The position numbers were made by a program, and so were the translations under genes. Under the pieces are notes generated by a model. That model searched no databases. It was not told the origin of the DNA and worked only from the letters and a program-made list of their open reading frames with translations. Of a stretch of 24,005 nt of DNA, positions 6,359-15,044 are shown piece after piece (within the stretch, counting starts at the first letter, position 1; each line of letters starts with the position of its first letter). This DNA is from a virus: positions 1 to 24,005 of the IMG/VR virus record IMGVR_UViG_3300009506_000187; one strand, given 5' to 3'.

Positions 6359-8233
6359 ATGGCTATAGCACTAAAGCTCGACACTACTGATGGTTTTCTC
6401 TATCAGTTCGGTGTTAGCGATGATCTCGACATTGACGTAATAAGTCAGCGCACGGCTGGCGTAGACATGACCATCGGCGCGAATCTCGGTTCCGGCGATG
6501 AGTTACAACTAGGTAAATCCGGCGAGCTCGTGCGTGTGATGGGTGACCTCACCGTCGACGGATCGGAAATCGTTTCGACGAATGAAACGGTAACCGGTAC
6601 GTTTACCGCAAACGGCGATGTGAACCTCGGTTCCGGTGACGATACAATCAACATCGGTTCGGGTAGCGGCGATACTGTGAACTTGGAAGAAAACCTAGTT
6701 CTCGGCGCTGGCTTAGTTTCGATCGGTAGTTCGGTAACCGATTACCTCTCGGCGTTGTGGCTCGTAGCAGTCAACGACGCGGGACCGGATAACGCAGCGT
6801 ACAATCTCGGGGCTTCGGGTACGAATGCCGGCGCATACGCAATCGGTGTCGATCCTTCCTTATTGTCGAATTCTTCGGCGACCGATTTGATGTCGGCGTT
6901 GGACGACTTGGATGCGGCAATCACGGCGGCCGGTGCGGACACTTTGCAGACCGCGTACGAGGCGGGAAACACGATCGCCGTTTCTTCGACTTACGGCGCT
7001 GTCGCACTGTCAAATAATACTGATTCCGACACCACGATCGTGTTGGATATCAATAAGTCCCCAACCTCCACTTCGACCGGTGGCAACGCGGCTCAAATCA
7101 CGATGGGGGCGAACGCAACCGGAACCGGTTTGGAAATCGATAACGGTGGTAGCGGCGCGGCCCTAGACGTGCAAGACGGTGGGGCAAGTGTGTTGGTGGT
7201 CAACGGCTCCGGTGGAATCGTCGCGACTCCGACAAGCGGTCAAGACTTCGACATCACGACCGCGGGCGCCGGCAAGCTAGACGTTTCAGCGGCCGGTGGA
7301 ATCGACCTCGACGCAAGCGCGGCTTCTCACTTCACAGTAGACAGTGCTGGCCTAACTTTGTCGACGACCACTTCCGGCGCGTTGACCTTGTCGTCGGCGG
7401 GTCTTTTGGATGTGGACGCAACTTCCATCGAAATCGACTCGAGTGGCGCAATCGCGATCGAGAGCTCCGGCGGTGCGATCAGCATCGGTGCGGATGCGGT
7501 GGCACAACCCATCAATATCGGTACCGGCGCAGCGGCCCGGACGATCACCATGGGTAACGCTTCTTCGACCGAGGTGGAACTAAACGCCGGCTTGATTGAC
7601 ATCAATGCGGGTGCGAACGGTTTCACAATCGACGGCGGTGCGGCTTCTTCGATAGCGGTTTCGGCCGGTAACCTAAGCCTAGACTCGGCGGCCGGCGAGC
7701 TGGTTTTCGACGATGTCGGAAATAGCGGAATCACGCTGTCGCAAGCCGGCGATCGTACTTTGAACGAAACCGGTACAGGCGAAGTTTTCGAAGGAATCAC
7801 CTCGATAATCGGCGCGTTGAATGCATTGGCTGACGCAACCGCAATCGGTACTCTTCAAGAGTTGGCAATAGAAAACGGCGTGACCATCGCGGCGGGTGAG
7901 TGTGTAGCACAGTCAACCACTTCCGGGCGCGTAACTCAATGGAACGGCAACGCTGCAACGAATGCGCGATTCATTGGAATAGCGATTACGGGCGGAACCG
8001 GTAACGTTGGCGGAACAGTTCTATGTCAATTCGCGATGCCGGGTAGTTTGGTGTCGGTCTCCGGCGCTGCGTTCACGGCTGGCCAAGCTCTGTTTGGGCC
8101 GGATGGAACCGGTATTCCGGTTGCAATCGGTTCGGCTCCGTCGAATACGGGCGATGCGTTTCGACGCTTGGGTTGGGCACACACTTCGACCCTTATGTTC
8201 TTGGATCCGGGACCTACGATTATTCTAGGGTAA
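6359..8233 (+). CDS. Repetitive beta-structured fibre protein with N-terminal anchor and DUF2190-like C-terminus
   Basis: 624 residues with a strong GGAGGG site. Residues 1-68 (from MAIALKL and GFLYQFG through GDELQLG to MGDLTVDG) are an anchor domain shared with the protein at 9258-9887. Residues about 70-480 are Gly/Ser/Thr/Asp-rich with short beta repeats such as INIGSGSGDTVNL and PINIGTGAAARTITMGN, typical of phage tail fibres and beta-helical adhesins. Residues about 500-624 are a beta domain ending RRLGWAHTSTLMFLDPGPTIIL, similar in layout to the C terminus of the protein at 5311-5919. It is probably a homotrimeric surface fibre. Whether it attaches to the head or the tail is open, given the capsid-proximal location. 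Confidence 0.75.
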   Translation: MAIALKLDTTDGFLYQFGVSDDLDIDVISQRTAGVDMTIGANLGSGDELQLGKSGELVRVMGDLTVDGSEIVSTNETVTGTFTANGDVNLGSGDDTINIGSGSGDTVNLEENLVLGAGLVSIGSSVTDYLSALWLVAVNDAGPDNAAYNLGASGTNAGAYAIGVDPSLLSNSSATDLMSALDDLDAAITAAGADTLQTAYEAGNTIAVSSTYGAVALSNNTDSDTTIVLDINKSPTSTSTGGNAAQITMGANATGTGLEIDNGGSGAALDVQDGGASVLVVNGSGGIVATPTSGQDFDITTAGAGKLDVSAAGGIDLDASAASHFTVDSAGLTLSTTTSGALTLSSAGLLDVDATSIEIDSSGAIAIESSGGAISIGADAVAQPINIGTGAAARTITMGNASSTEVELNAGLIDINAGANGFTIDGGAASSIAVSAGNLSLDSAAGELVFDDVGNSGITLSQAGDRTLNETGTGEVFEGITSIIGALNALADATAIGTLQELAIENGVTIAAGECVAQSTTSGRVTQWNGNAATNARFIGIAITGGTGNVGGTVLCQFAMPGSLVSVSGAAFTAGQALFGPDGTGIPVAIGSAPSNTGDAFRRLGWAHTSTLMFLDPGPTIILG

Positions 8234-8280
8234 CGCGGATTCGCTGACACAAACAAAGCCAAAAGCGGGAAGGTGAAATA

Positions 8281-9258
8281 ATGGCTACAACGAAAAAGAA
8301 GACTACGGGTACGACCACAAAAAAGCGTACCCGCAGCACACCGAAGAAAAAACGAGTAACAAAGAAGAACGAAGAGCAGCCGGTTGTCGAGGTTGTCAAA
8401 AATGTGGAAGAAGTGCAAACGCCAATTGCGCAAGTTCTCGAAAACATATCTCCTCGACTACCCGACAGCGTTATCATTGACGGGAAACCGGTACCATTGA
8501 ACGGAATTGCTCCCGGGGAAATACCGGTAAACCCGGCGCCTCCCGCAACTCCGGTACCTCCCACCCCTCCGGTTGTTACCCCTGTACCATCACAGCGCAC
8601 ATCGGTAGACGATCGCGAAGCGGCTCGTGTTGCTCGAATGCAACGGCGTCAACGTGAACGAGAACAGAACGGTCACGCGGCGGCCGCGGTAAACCAACCC
8701 GCTCCGGCCGCAAATCCACCCGTTCCGGCGGTGCAACCTGTACCGGTAGCTTCGGTTCCTCCAATACAACCGACGCCTCCCGTGAACGAGTTAGGGCAGC
8801 CAACACCCCCGAATACCCAACAGCTCGCAGCGGAAGCACTAAAAACTGTTATGCCGCCACAAGCACAACCACAGCAACAACAGCCAAACCCGGCGGCGCT
8901 TCCGGTACCTCCCCCGTCTGCAGATCATCCAGATCTAAAGATTCCCATATCCGAGTTGTTTCAATACAAAATTCAGGTTCTCGAGGGGCAAATGCGCGAG
9001 CTCGCCGCCCCTATCCGTGCACAACTAAAAGCGCAAGCGGAACAGTGGCTAAAAGACGCCATTGTTTCGACGCTTGCACAAAACGAGGCTTATCAAGTAG
9101 CATGTAGACAGACCGAAAATTGTGTCAATGAGCTTCTTGCGCAATTGGCACCTACATTACCTGAAGGGTATGCCGTTGTATTGATTGGTGCTAAAGAAGG
9201 CCAAGCCATATGTCGATATGCCCCTGACCAAGCCGGGAAGAGATTTAAAATTGATTAA
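8281..9258 (+). CDS. Lys-rich/Pro-rich modular structural protein of unknown function
   Basis: 325 residues, with GGGAAGGTG upstream. There are three parts. Residues 1-34 are dense in Lys, Arg and Thr (TTKKKTTGTTTKKRTRSTPKK), like a nucleic-acid-binding histone-type tail. Residues about 80-220 are a disordered Pro/Ala/Gln tract interrupted by a basic helix (RVARMQRRQREREQ). Residues about 225-325 are a folded, mostly helical domain (ISELFQYKIQVLEGQM) with two cysteines (ACRQTENC) and a short beta ending. I do not recognise the family. It could bind packaged DNA or act as a flexible linker in the virion. The stop overlaps the next start by one base (TAATG). Confidence 0.7.
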   Translation: MATTKKKTTGTTTKKRTRSTPKKKRVTKKNEEQPVVEVVKNVEEVQTPIAQVLENISPRLPDSVIIDGKPVPLNGIAPGEIPVNPAPPATPVPPTPPVVTPVPSQRTSVDDREAARVARMQRRQREREQNGHAAAAVNQPAPAANPPVPAVQPVPVASVPPIQPTPPVNELGQPTPPNTQQLAAEALKTVMPPQAQPQQQQPNPAALPVPPPSADHPDLKIPISELFQYKIQVLEGQMRELAAPIRAQLKAQAEQWLKDAIVSTLAQNEAYQVACRQTENCVNELLAQLAPTLPEGYAVVLIGAKEGQAICRYAPDQAGKRFKID

Positions 9259-9887
9259 TGGCGATTGCACTGAAATTAGGTACCGACGGATTTCTGTACC
9301 AAATCGGAGATAGTGAGGCTCTCCAAGCTGACGCATTTGAAAGAAAGCAAGCTTCGGGGGATCTTCTTGTCGGTTCTACTTTAGGTGTATCCGACGAGCT
9401 TCAACTTGGTTCTTCGTCCGCGATTGTGCGATCAATGGGTGACGCTCGTATCGATGGATATATCGAGATAATCGACACGAGCGCGCCCGGTAATCCATCC
9501 GATGGTGAAGGGCGTCTTTACAAAAAGACGGGCAACGACGGGTTGTTTTGGCTCCCCGATTCGGGCGGAAGCGAGGTTGATCTAACCGGCGGCTTTTCTT
9601 CCGAAGAACACCGCACTCTCGATCAGCTTACGCACGAAATCGACGAGGATTATTACGGCGAATACACGTACGGTGCGCCCGGTGGTAACGTTTCGAATTA
9701 TACGATTTGGACGAATTCGGGGAAAACCCTAAAAATACGAGAATTTGACTATACTTATTCGGGCGGAAAGATGACAACGTCGACCGCGAAGCAATACAAT
9801 GGTGCGGGTGCGGTAGTAGAAACTCTAACGTATACTTACAATTGGAGTGGTTCTCACCTCTCCAATGTCACATGTGTGAGGAGTTAA
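9258..9887 (+). CDS. Fibre protein with shared N-terminal anchor domain
   Basis: 209 residues, translationally coupled to the gene before it. Residues 1-67 align with the first 68 of the fibre at 6359-8233, with 37 of 67 positions identical by eye, including MAIALKL, GFLYQ, DELQLG and the MGD...DG ending. Next comes a segment typical of phage fibre and head proteins (SDGEGRLYKKTGNDGLFW). The C-terminal 80 residues are Tyr/Thr/Gly-rich beta structure (YYGEYTYGAPGGNVSNY), likely a small trimeric tip. The shared anchor suggests that both proteins dock on the same virion site. Confidence 0.7.
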   Translation: MAIALKLGTDGFLYQIGDSEALQADAFERKQASGDLLVGSTLGVSDELQLGSSSAIVRSMGDARIDGYIEIIDTSAPGNPSDGEGRLYKKTGNDGLFWLPDSGGSEVDLTGGFSSEEHRTLDQLTHEIDEDYYGEYTYGAPGGNVSNYTIWTNSGKTLKIREFDYTYSGGKMTTSTAKQYNGAGAVVETLTYTYNWSGSHLSNVTCVRS

Positions 9888-9891
9888 TTGA

Positions 9892-11322
9892 ATGTCCGCT
9901 GCTAGTCCCATTGTTGTAATCATAGATTCATCGAATCCACGTGTAATTACAGGGACATACACATTCGATACCGGTAGCTCTCTTCTTATACCAAGTGGCT
10001 CTTCACTTCCCGGGACACCTACCGCAAAAGAAGTCTTTTGGAATACAACCGACGACATCTTGTATCGGCGAAATGATGCCGATACCGCGTGGGTTGCGGT
10101 TAGCGCATCTCCGGCGGCGCACGCATCGTCACACCAAAGCGGCGGTGGGGACGCGATCAAGCTCGACGATTTGGCTGCGCCGGACGATAACACAGATCTC
10201 AACGCCACCGTTAGCGCGCACGGACTCTTGCCGAAACTTGGGGGCGGAACAACCAACTTTCTTCGAGCCGATGGAACGTGGGCGGAGCCTCCCGGCGGTT
10301 CGCACGCAGCGACGCACCAAAACGGCGGCGCTGACGAGATTAGTGTTGCCGGTTTATCGGGTTTGCTAGCAGACGGGCAAACACCGCTTTCACACGCATC
10401 GTCACACCAAAGCGGCGGCGCAGACTCAATAAAACTCGATGATCTTGCGGCACCCGACGATAACACAGATCTGAATGCGACAACGAGCGCACACGGCTTA
10501 CTTCCAAAATTGGGTGGTGGTACGACAAACTATTTACGCGAAGATGGAACGTGGCAGAATCCAACTAGCGGATCGGGTGGATTTCCCACCATGTACAAGT
10601 ACGGTTTTGGTCATTACAACAACGCCACAAATCCAAACTATCAAATCGATATCGAAACCGGTATCTGCCGAAGCGATGACGATACCACCGATTTTTCTAC
10701 CTCTTCCACAATTACGGTGGATATTACCCAGTCCGGCGCGAACGGGTTGGATGCGGGAAGCGAAGCATCGTGGACGTGGTACTACATTTATGTAATCTAT
10801 AACCCCACTACTACCACGTACGCCGGATTGTTGAGCACAAGCTCGAGTTCTCCGACCATGCCAAGCGGTTACACAAAAAAGCGTCGTATTGGTGTGGTGA
10901 TCAATAACGGTAGTAGCAATTTCAAACAATACCGCGCGAATTACCATCTAGGGCGAGAAGTTTTTCACGTCTACAACGATGAAGACGAAGACAACGTTCA
11001 GCTACTTTCAAATGGTGGTGCCACTTCATGGACCGATGTTTATGCGGGCGCTTCCATACCGCCAACTTCGCTACACGGCTATTTTGTAATGCGCTTTTCT
11101 GCGAATAACTACGATCAGAAATGCTTTGTTAGGCCAAAAGGAGCAACAATCAACGAACCTCCGACGTGCGCGTACGCGGGTGCACAGACAATTTCAGCGC
11201 TTGCTACTTCGAGTCTTGCATTTGAAATGAAAACGGATAGTTCAAGGTATATTCAATATATACATAGTTCGGCTAGTAACGAGTTGAGTTTGTGGGTCAT
11301 GGGCTTTATTGATTTTTGCTAG
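9892..11322 (+). CDS. Tail-fibre-like protein with HASSHQSGG repeats
   Basis: 476 residues, with GAGGAG before the ATG. The N-terminal 75 residues resemble fibre lead segments (PTAKEVFWNTTDDILYRRND). Residues 77-130 and 168-221 are two copies of a 54-residue unit (49 of 54 identical) running from HASSHQSGG through GLLPKLGGGTTN to DGTW. A third short copy (HAATHQNGG) starts at residue 138. These H-rich motifs are common in phage tail fibres. Residues about 230-476 are a beta-rich head domain of known fibre style (DIETGICRSDDDTTDFS, WTWYYIYVIYNP, GYTKKRRIGVVINN), likely the receptor-binding part. It is a probable host-recognition fibre. The C terminus ends in aromatic residues and a Cys. Confidence 0.8.
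   Translation: MSAASPIVVIIDSSNPRVITGTYTFDTGSSLLIPSGSSLPGTPTAKEVFWNTTDDILYRRNDADTAWVAVSASPAAHASSHQSGGGDAIKLDDLAAPDDNTDLNATVSAHGLLPKLGGGTTNFLRADGTWAEPPGGSHAATHQNGGADEISVAGLSGLLADGQTPLSHASSHQSGGADSIKLDDLAAPDDNTDLNATTSAHGLLPKLGGGTTNYLREDGTWQNPTSGSGGFPTMYKYGFGHYNNATNPNYQIDIETGICRSDDDTTDFSTSSTITVDITQSGANGLDAGSEASWTWYYIYVIYNPTTTTYAGLLSTSSSSPTMPSGYTKKRRIGVVINNGSSNFKQYRANYHLGREVFHVYNDEDEDNVQLLSNGGATSWTDVYAGASIPPTSLHGYFVMRFSANNYDQKCFVRPKGATINEPPTCAYAGAQTISALATSSLAFEMKTDSSRYIQYIHSSASNELSLWVMGFIDFC
10120..10281 (+). repeat. 162-bp repeat unit 1 in the fibre gene
   Basis: It encodes HASSHQSGG...DGTW (54 residues). It matches unit 2 at 10393-10554 in 49 of 54 residues, while synonymous sites have drifted considerably. 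This indicates an old duplication kept by selection on the protein. Confidence 0.85.
10393..10554 (+). repeat. 162-bp repeat unit 2 in the fibre gene
   Basis: Second copy of the 54-residue unit, offset 273 bases (91 residues) from unit 1. The spacer between the copies contains a degenerate third motif (HAATHQNGG). Confidence 0.85.
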
Positions 11323-12798: not shown

Positions 12799-13348
12799 GG
12801 TCGACTATACAATTTCAAAAGATATGATTAATTTGCGCTTACTCATCGGTGAATTGGATGCCGAAGAAACAATTCCGGATCCACAATCGATCGCATTTTC
12901 GAAAGACGGGTTGGCGCTTTCCATCTATTTCGAAAATGAGTTGTCAACGGCGGAGCAACAAACGCTTGATACATTGGTGAGTGAGCACAACCCGGAAACG
13001 CTCGAAGAAGCTAAGCAGCGAAAGTGCGAAGAAATCGACGATCGTACCGCGGAGCTCGTTGCGGATGGTTTCGAGTTCAATGGGGTTGTGTTTAGTGGTT
13101 CCGTGGAATCCCAAAGTCGTGTGATAGGGGCGTACACCGCACGCGCGTTTGCAACTTACCCAATTCGATGGATGTCAAAAGACGATTCAACCTATGTCGA
13201 CCTTGTAGACGAAAGTATGCTAACGTCGTTTTTTCTCATAGGTTTCGGTACTTTGAAGGCAAAAATTGATGTTGGCTCAACTTTAAAAATTCAGGTATCG
13301 GGTGCAAATTCGGTTGAAGAGGTTAATAGTATAACTGATCCTAGATGA
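12791..13348 (+). CDS. DUF4376-like fibre-associated protein
   Basis: 185 residues, overlapping the previous gene by 8 bases, with AAGGTACGAAG as ribosome binding site inside it. The centre (EEAKQRKCEEIDDRTAELVA, then GFEFNGVVFS) matches the shape of DUF4376 domains found at the end of tail fibre or fibre-assembly proteins. In those proteins it is a helix that begins with repeated charged residues, then a DGF...FSLS-like turn. It is probably a fibre chaperone or a small fibre component. No signal peptide is present. Confidence 0.6.
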   Translation: MFKVDYTISKDMINLRLLIGELDAEETIPDPQSIAFSKDGLALSIYFENELSTAEQQTLDTLVSEHNPETLEEAKQRKCEEIDDRTAELVADGFEFNGVVFSGSVESQSRVIGAYTARAFATYPIRWMSKDDSTYVDLVDESMLTSFFLIGFGTLKAKIDVGSTLKIQVSGANSVEEVNSITDPR

Positions 13349-13395
13349 CGGACAGTTATCAAAACCTATTTCAATTCACCCACAAAGGAGGGGGC

Positions 13396-14904
13396 ATGTT
13401 TCGATATATTTCGAATTTGATATTGGCTTGCGCGTACGCGCTGGTTTTTTCTTGCTGTGCGGTTTACGACCCCGGCGATGTTGATCCCATTGGCACCAAC
13501 GAAAGCGTAAAATCACGTCTAGTGCTCGACACAATCGATTTTGCGGGGCATGAATGGATCGTGAAAAGCGGTTATTGCTCGGTCGGTAATACTGCGGGTC
13601 CCGGACCAAATTATTGGTGTGGGGACGAAGAAGATTTGTGGGTGGATGCATACGATCGCCTTCATATGAAAATGAACTATAAATCGGCGCTTAGCCATTA
13701 CGGGGCGGTTTCAATCAAGACACCTGTAAGCGGCTGCGGTTTTTATCGGTATTCTGTGACTGACGGACCGAACGGATCACCCGACTCATTTGATCCCAAT
13801 GTGGTACTCGGTTTGTTTACTTACGACGATGCTCCCACATATGACAACTACGAAATCGATATAGAAATCTCTGATTGGGGCGACTTAACACCCGACGTGA
13901 ATTTGTATTACGTTACATGGGAAGACAGTAGCTCAACAGCCGATAGCACGCTCGAAACGTTTGGTGATGGGGTAATAGACCACTCGTTCACGTGGCTACC
14001 ATCTTCGATCGTATTTAATTCGACCAAAGACAGCGTTTACATGTATGACGGGGTACGCACAGGATCGGAAGTTTACCCATGCCCAACCACACCGATATAT
14101 GCACGAATCAACTTTTGGTTAGTAGACGGTGATGACCCGGCGTCTTGGCAAGAGGTGGTAATTGACGATTTCGAATTCATCCCGCTTGTGATTCTCAATC
14201 AACCAACCGGTCTTTCGGCAACAGCAACGTCTAGCTCAAGCATCGATCTTTCATGGAATGATACGTCAAGCGGCGAGTACGGCTACCAAATCGAGCGGAA
14301 AGAATCCGGTGGATCGTATAGCATTGTAACAACTACCGATCCGGAAGCAACTTCGTATACTGACGAAAACTTGAGCGCAGGTACAACTTACATTTACCGA
14401 ATTGCTGCAGTGAATGACGGAGACGAATACAGCGATTATTCAAGTGAAGCGCAAGACACGACCGATAGTGAACCGGATGCGGGTGTCGACGGTGGAAGCG
14501 AAGGGCCGGGATTGTCGGCGATTACGTTCTCGTTTGTGGGATGGAATGGCTACGTATCCGGCACAATATCTGATTTACCGGAAGGTAGTTTTCACGCGCG
14601 GTCTTGGGTGCAAACGAATATGATGTATCGCGAAGGAAAAGATTTGACAGTTGATTCGAGCAACAATTCATTCTATGCGACACATGGTTTATGGGGAGAC
14701 CCGGGAGTAACTACGTGCATTTGGGTGAGTCTCCATTACGCTTCGACCGACGTTTACGGAACAGGCGACGGTGTTTCAATGGACAAAGAGGATTGGCCAG
14801 ACGAAGCGGAACCGGATTATGTGTGGTCGTGTTCTTTGGATACTTCAACGACAGGGACGTGTGAACCCTACACGGGTGTCGAAGAAGTTTGTGGCTACAA
14901 CTAA
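13396..14904 (+). CDS. Putative lipoprotein with GH16-like and fibronectin type III domains
   Basis: 502 residues from the ATG at 13396, which has a strong AAAGGAGGGGG site and gives a signal peptide. An in-frame ATG at 13345 overlaps the previous stop but would bury the signal. The N terminus MFRYISNLILACAYALVFSC fits a lipobox (V-F-S-C20). Residues about 40-262 resemble GH16/concanavalin-like glucanases: FAGHEWIV, GPGPNYW, LWVDAYDRLHMKM, DPNVVLGLF, and the catalytic motif E-I-D-I-E (E153, D155, E157) intact. Residues about 267-355 are a fibronectin type III domain (PTGLSATATSSSSIDLSW). A DAGVDGG linker follows, then a Cys-rich C-terminal domain (about 125 residues). It is probably exported and anchored to a host membrane, acting on or binding a glycan. 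It does not look like a virion protein. The operon ends here at a terminator. Confidence 0.75.
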   Translation: MFRYISNLILACAYALVFSCCAVYDPGDVDPIGTNESVKSRLVLDTIDFAGHEWIVKSGYCSVGNTAGPGPNYWCGDEEDLWVDAYDRLHMKMNYKSALSHYGAVSIKTPVSGCGFYRYSVTDGPNGSPDSFDPNVVLGLFTYDDAPTYDNYEIDIEISDWGDLTPDVNLYYVTWEDSSSTADSTLETFGDGVIDHSFTWLPSSIVFNSTKDSVYMYDGVRTGSEVYPCPTTPIYARINFWLVDGDDPASWQEVVIDDFEFIPLVILNQPTGLSATATSSSSIDLSWNDTSSGEYGYQIERKESGGSYSIVTTTDPEATSYTDENLSAGTTYIYRIAAVNDGDEYSDYSSEAQDTTDSEPDAGVDGGSEGPGLSAITFSFVGWNGYVSGTISDLPEGSFHARSWVQTNMMYREGKDLTVDSSNNSFYATHGLWGDPGVTTCIWVSLHYASTDVYGTGDGVSMDKEDWPDEAEPDYVWSCSLDTSTTGTCEPYTGVEEVCGYN

Positions 14905-14920: not shown

Positions 14921-14940
14921 GGTGCCCCAATAGGGGCACC
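14921..14940 (+). terminator. Intrinsic terminator after the lipoprotein gene
   Basis: GGTGCCCC and GGGGCACC form a perfect 8-bp GC-rich stem with an AATA loop. AAAAA precedes it and GTGTGCTTTAATT follows. The T-run is interrupted, but stem strength and position (17 bases after a stop codon) make termination likely. Confidence 0.75.
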
Positions 14941-14969: not shown

Positions 14970-15044
14970 ATGCTAGCGGTTGTTCTTTCGGGTGGTGGCG
15001 CAAGCGGCATTACGTGGGATGAGGTGGTAAACTACCATAGATGA
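14970..15044 (+). CDS. 24-residue leader-type ORF coupled to the next gene
   Basis: The ATG at 14970 follows AAGAGGT. The peptide (MLAVVLSGGG then ASGITWDEVVNYHR) ends with TGA at 15042-15044, overlapping the next ATG (ATGA). This first start after the terminator may serve to couple translation of the following gene, whose own Shine-Dalgarno (GAGG) is 16 bases away behind a small hairpin. It could also be a fortuitous ORF. No known peptide is recognised. Confidence 0.4.
   Translation: MLAVVLSGGGASGITWDEVVNYHR
15025..15037 (+). other. Mini-hairpin between ribosome binding site and start
   Basis: TGGTA-AAC-TACCA folds just after GAGG (15021-15024) and before the ATG at 15041. Folding would shorten the long Shine-Dalgarno to start distance, so it may tune initiation of the 92-residue protein. 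Confidence 0.3.

Follow-up and report, generated by a model that had tools for sequence, protein, structure and literature searches.

Why would a phage place a gene for an apparently exported glycan-cutting enzyme among the genes for its particle? Most phage enzymes of this kind that are known belong to the virion itself. The question arose in the window analysed here, a 24,005-base IMG/VR record that looks like a section of a contractile-tail phage's structural block, with genes for a protease, the major capsid protein, several proteins that are fibre-like or of unknown kind, a head-tail adaptor, a neck protein, the tail sheath and the tail tube. After the fibre-like genes and before the head-tail adaptor lies an open reading frame (13396-14904, + strand) of 502 amino acids, in which we read, in this order, a signal peptide, a GH16 domain, a fibronectin type III (FN3) domain, a linker and a C-terminal domain. 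An initial annotation had seen in it a possible exported glycanase that keeps its active site and is encoded within a virion operon, and our analysis supports this description at the level of prediction.

The gene, its relatives and its surroundings

Two in-frame start codons come into question, the ATG at 13396 and an alternative upstream ATG at 13345. A strong ribosome-binding site, AAAGGAGG (13384-13391, + strand), can be read 4 bases 5' of the former, and equivalent sites are found in three homologues (L002, L003 and L006). For these reasons 13396 is the likely start, which agrees with the coordinates in the initial annotation. The homologue set comprises the window protein, its counterparts in two close syntenic phage contigs, L002 (82% identical) and L003 (78%), and that of a more distant phage, L006 (56%). 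In all four phages the same small gene and the head-tail adaptor are found downstream of it. L002, L003 and L006 come from uncultured phages of Mai Po wetland sediment, the origin of both metagenomes in which relatives occur, 3300009506 (MaiPo-8) and 3300010413 (MaiPo-9; PMC6461988). No tRNAs were found in these phages. Since no tyrosine integrase was found in relatives of 140 kb and 98 kb, a lytic life style is suggested.

The initial annotation had placed the gene last before a terminator. A perfect 8-bp inverted repeat does follow it (14921-14940, unstranded), and is terminator-like at best: it has no T-run on the + strand, such sites are no more numerous in the window than in shuffles, and structural genes on the same strand resume beyond it. 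A related hairpin could be read in L002 and not in L003. We therefore rejected a terminator, which was not supported above chance, and kept only the repeat. Directly after the GH16 gene, L002 (11580-12458) and L003 (11530-12417) carry an intact patatin-like gene (PF01734). None is present in the window, which has a patatin-like phospholipase remnant of 24 codons (14970-15044, + strand), the first 11 reading MLAVVLSGGGA before a deletion junction. This neighbour has thus been deleted to a remnant, with the GH16 gene still intact.

Two further observations concern other genes of the block. In the protease-containing protein (436-1815), residues 226-314 form an 89-residue stretch that recurs at 71% identity within another, non-corresponding gene of L006 (11100-11792), where this mobile module stands in a new context. 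The neighbouring structural proteins at 6359-8233 and 9258-9887 have a related N-terminus of about 70 residues (41-46% identical in cross-matches to relatives), which suggests a common attachment domain.

The GH16 domain, its active site and its descent

Direct sequence searches of the window protein in Pfam, NCBIfam, PHROGs and the PDB returned FN3 alone and no GH16. A viral-only profile likewise found no GH16 in the PDB, so that the assignment needs bacterial relatives. The domain (amino acids 46-262; 13531-14181, + strand) was found in 27 bacterial and archaeal genome loci at about 25-40% identity, giving an alignment of 28 rows. Seven of the 28 matched PF00722 with E values no higher than 0.1, the lowest being 2.2e-7, the window protein by itself being unmatched. 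The joint profile of this alignment reached the Bacillus lichenases 1BYH, 1MAC and 1GBG in the PDB (E 7e-12), and the EIDIE motifs of the two sides coincided in the alignment. Foldseek with a full-length model was discarded as evidence for GH16 because FN3 proteins swamped the matches, and the domain was therefore modelled by itself with AlphaFold (AF2; pLDDT 88.8, pTM 0.88). A missing GH16 cleft, which the initial annotation had named as evidence against its reading, did not appear; the model has the beta-jelly-roll GH16 fold, and its top PDB matches were the lichenases 1MAC and 1GBG (TM 0.66-0.71), followed by other GH16 beta-glucanases. We regard the assignment to GH16, drawn from relatives, profile and fold model and thus from remote evidence, as secure.

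The catalytic motif E153-I-D155-I-E157 (13852-13866, + strand) is intact, as the initial annotation had read it. Its two Glu and its Asp are invariant in all 28 rows and belong to just 11 invariant columns of the alignment. They are also kept in seven of seven phage GH16 sequences as well as all aligned bacterial relatives, the residues between them exchanging Ile and Val. The GH16 roadmap sets EXDXE enzymes apart from bulged EXDXXE enzymes, and names two features of lichenases, a Phe in the -1 platform and a Trp at +1 that is strictly conserved (PMC6827312). By alignment, the window domain has EXDXE without the beta-bulge, F141 (a position held by Phe or Tyr in 28 of 28 rows) and, in an NxW motif, W241, which would correspond to the +1 Trp. 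The features of lichenase subfamily 21 thus appear to be present, and the domain is likely to be catalytically active.

The Bacillus lichenases (GH16 subfamily 21; 1MAC, 1GBG) are alike in the jelly-roll fold, the motif without a bulge, the Phe platform and the aligned Trp, whereas the window protein is only 15-19% identical to them, is encoded by a phage and has FN3 and a C-terminal domain attached. Among bacteria, GH16-like exported proteins from Bacteroidota, Verrucomicrobiota and other groups have the same domain, many behind N-termini that look signal-like by eye, but the FN3 and C-terminal arrangement was not seen among them. No full-length relatives were found in annotated phages.

Three further viral contigs encode a GH16 domain with intact EXDXE: L067, L069 and L072. 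The L069 protein ends in this domain, and its N-terminus matches a minor-tail family; in the L072 protein (7491-8825) the domain comes after a head-structural one (phrog_3758), so that a glycanase exposed on the capsid is possible. The L067 protein has a Pro/Glu-rich N-terminus. None of the three has a signal peptide, and the L069 and L072 proteins further differ from the window protein by their virion-type N-terminal domains. A phage GH16-domain protein in BFVD (A0A8S5SMD8), matched by fold only, has a very similar fold. Because other phages fuse GH16 to virion-type domains, the link between GH16 and phages is not new; what is new is the predicted exported form inside a structural block. As a separate observation, a RecQ-like helicase gene (L067 4597-7116) with an intein-like interruption, recognized by eye, lies beside the L067 GH16 gene.

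The gene is conserved within its own group of phages. Synonymous sites were near saturation, and comparisons were therefore made with pN. For the GH16 domain pN was 0.084 against L002 and 0.121 against L003, and for FN3 0.036 and 0.092; the capsid protein gave 0.221 and 0.235, and the tail sheath 0.136 against L003. Both parts thus rank with the most constrained regions of the block, and the gene evolves more slowly than that for the capsid protein. These pN values show it to be under purifying selection.

The initial annotation had proposed a moron-like gene recently acquired from the host. In the tree of GH16 domains the window group forms a long-branched clade of its own, separate from the bacterial proteins, and the scan found no near bacterial kin. 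The conserved slot, the slow evolution and the separate branch together argue against a recent pick-up from a host and mark the gene as a conserved phage gene, although the ultimate source of the domain was presumably cellular. Among 200 bootstrap trees, 0% placed all phage GH16 sequences in a single group, which suggests several acquisitions; the well-supported branches do not force the separation.

Signals for export and the accessory domains

The N-termini were read heuristically. In the window protein the signal peptide (13396-13458, + strand) takes up amino acids 1-19/20, with a predicted helix at 2-19 and Cys20/Cys21 at its end (LVFSCC). All four homologues begin with a short charged stretch, followed by a hydrophobic run that ends near one or two Cys. 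This stretch is merely 26-28% identical in close pairs. Signal peptides usually evolve in this way, keeping hydrophobicity while the sequence diverges. The lipobox of the initial annotation held in part: the PROSITE-style pattern fits the window protein (LVFSC) and L003 (IVYSC), but not L002 (CTNC) or L006 (AVCC). The mature part contains eight Cys, compared with zero to six in every other protein of the window, and all eight are invariant across the three close homologues, which suggests disulfides. Export is well supported by these features, and the Cys at the signal end may be lipidated in some of the homologues. With an export signal encoded, the infected cell probably bears the enzyme on its own surface. 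In the 140-kb relative, phage G002, at least four further proteins have classical lipobox-like signals, one of them with a weak Cor match (L058 4244-4879, L060 17063-17698, L061 3917-4237 and L061 18886-19314).

The FN3 domain, recognized in the initial annotation too, spans amino acids 269-347 (14200-14436, + strand; PF00041, E 2.2e-10). It is followed by a DAGVDGG linker (14476-14496, + strand), a motif that recurs in the L002 and L003 homologues and in no other part of the phage sequence examined. We take it to be reminiscent of Myxococcota-type lipoproteins. The C-terminal domain (14512-14901, + strand) is 75-78% identical in L002 and L003 and accounts for the Cys-rich end that had been noted, with Cys441, 479, 489 and 499. 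It resembles weakly, in a profile comparison (probability 35%), an accessory module that bacterial relatives of the GH16 protein carry, which is only suggestive of homology.

Possible roles at the surface of the infected cell

Our best explanation, held tentatively and still ahead of the others, is that the gene encodes a late, exported, probably membrane-anchored endo-beta-glucanase of lichenase type that, by trimming glycan at the infected cell's surface, aids release or prevents progeny from binding again. The position of the gene between the fibre-like genes and the head-tail adaptor points to late timing, and the gene would be expressed together with the late structural genes. The protein would then be exported by Sec and held at the membrane by a lipidated Cys, probably in at least some homologues, or otherwise by its hydrophobic segment. 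FN3 and the linker could serve as a stalk, and the C-terminal domain may bind glycan. Displayed in this manner, the enzyme would cut a beta-linked glycan on the surface or in the matrix of the infected cell or its neighbours. Progeny might thereby be released and spread more readily, and fewer new particles would be trapped by glycan, be it on debris or on cells that are already infected. Other phages carry the domain on virion-type proteins, which suggests that phages profit from GH16 activity at the cell surface.

A possible partner is the C-terminal tip (10582-11319, + strand) of the fibre-like protein encoded at 9892-11322, which has a weak PHROG tail-fibre match. This tip is 65% identical to that of L006 (7141-7878), compared with 61% for L002 and 60% for L003. 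Since it is closer to the distant L006 than to its close relatives, tips have evidently been exchanged between phages, as far as these identities tell. In L006 the tip-bearing gene is directly upstream of the GH16 gene. The capsid proteins of L006 and the window are about 29% identical, against 56% for the GH16 proteins and 67% for their GH16 domains, and the tip module and the GH16 protein alone give long matches above 50%. An idea that we consider rather unlikely is that the tip recognises a beta-glycan and has a receptor-destroying partner in the exported enzyme, which would strip the same glycan from the infected cell, an arrangement that could be likened to viral neuraminidase and haemagglutinin. 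L006 falls outside the trio of window, L002 and L003 in the GH16 tree, as expected for vertical descent, so slow evolution with vertical descent could account for the identity of its enzyme as well as joint transfer with the tip could; furthermore, no GH16 was found in the records examined of the tip relatives L042 and L043. A strict pairing of fibre and enzyme is for these reasons not proven. In another phage, two genes downstream of a fibre with a related tip, lies a lipoprotein-like gene for 512 residues (L050 9118-10656, MKSLVILFASAVFLFSCAED).

The most serious rival to the surface-trimming enzyme, because other phages appear to use the GH16 domain so, is a virion-associated depolymerase that degrades host glycan on arrival, with the hydrophobic N-terminus acting as an assembly or anchoring element. 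The location among structural genes, the fusions of GH16 to a minor-tail domain in L069 and a head-structural domain in L072, and the common occurrence of FN3 domains on virions fit it. We nevertheless judge it unlikely, given that no virion-attachment domain was found in the window protein, that the N-terminus resembles a signal peptide in four of four homologues, and that the Cys content is far above that of the structural neighbours. Still less probable is an auxiliary metabolic gene whose enzyme would nourish the infected cell by breaking down environmental beta-glucan from debris of plants or algae. The enzyme type and the origin in mangrove wetland sediment (PMC6461988) would suit such a gene, for which an active soil virus-encoded GH5 endomannanase provides a precedent (PMC6786970), but it lies in the structural block and not with early metabolic genes, no adjoining genes for sugar transport or metabolism were seen, and late expression would leave little time for a benefit.

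The initial annotation had also considered a superinfection-exclusion lipoprotein, which would remove or mask the receptor glycan against a second infection. This is possible in principle for an exported, glycan-directed protein, the more so as the L006 gene is directly downstream of one that shares the fibre-like tip of the window. Known exclusion lipoproteins such as Ltp, likewise phage-encoded, exported and at the cell surface, are genes of temperate phages (PMC3952083), whereas the window protein is a large enzyme in a structural operon, different in architecture and position, and a search of the two long relatives gave no integrase. A weak match to the exclusion protein Cor (E 0.007) belongs to a different lipoprotein of G002. 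With nothing specific in its favour, we consider this role quite improbable. A catalytically dead, lectin-like scaffold for adhesion would have a parallel in the GH16-fold match 4WZF (Rv0315), described as a pseudo-glucanase; it is very improbable in view of the catalytic residues kept throughout the phage and bacterial sequences.

The GH16 roadmap of 2019 names the beta-glucanase of Chlorella virus PBCV-1 as the sole characterised viral member (PMC6827312). That enzyme is also encoded by a virus, but by one of eukaryotic algae, and differs by its GH16_3 kinship and its context. A working phage GH16 would therefore be the first of its kind, as far as could be found. With the domain on tail-type, head-type and predicted exported proteins, one enzyme has apparently been placed in three ways. 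If the surface-trimming explanation is true, some phages make the infected cell cut its own surface glycan late in infection.
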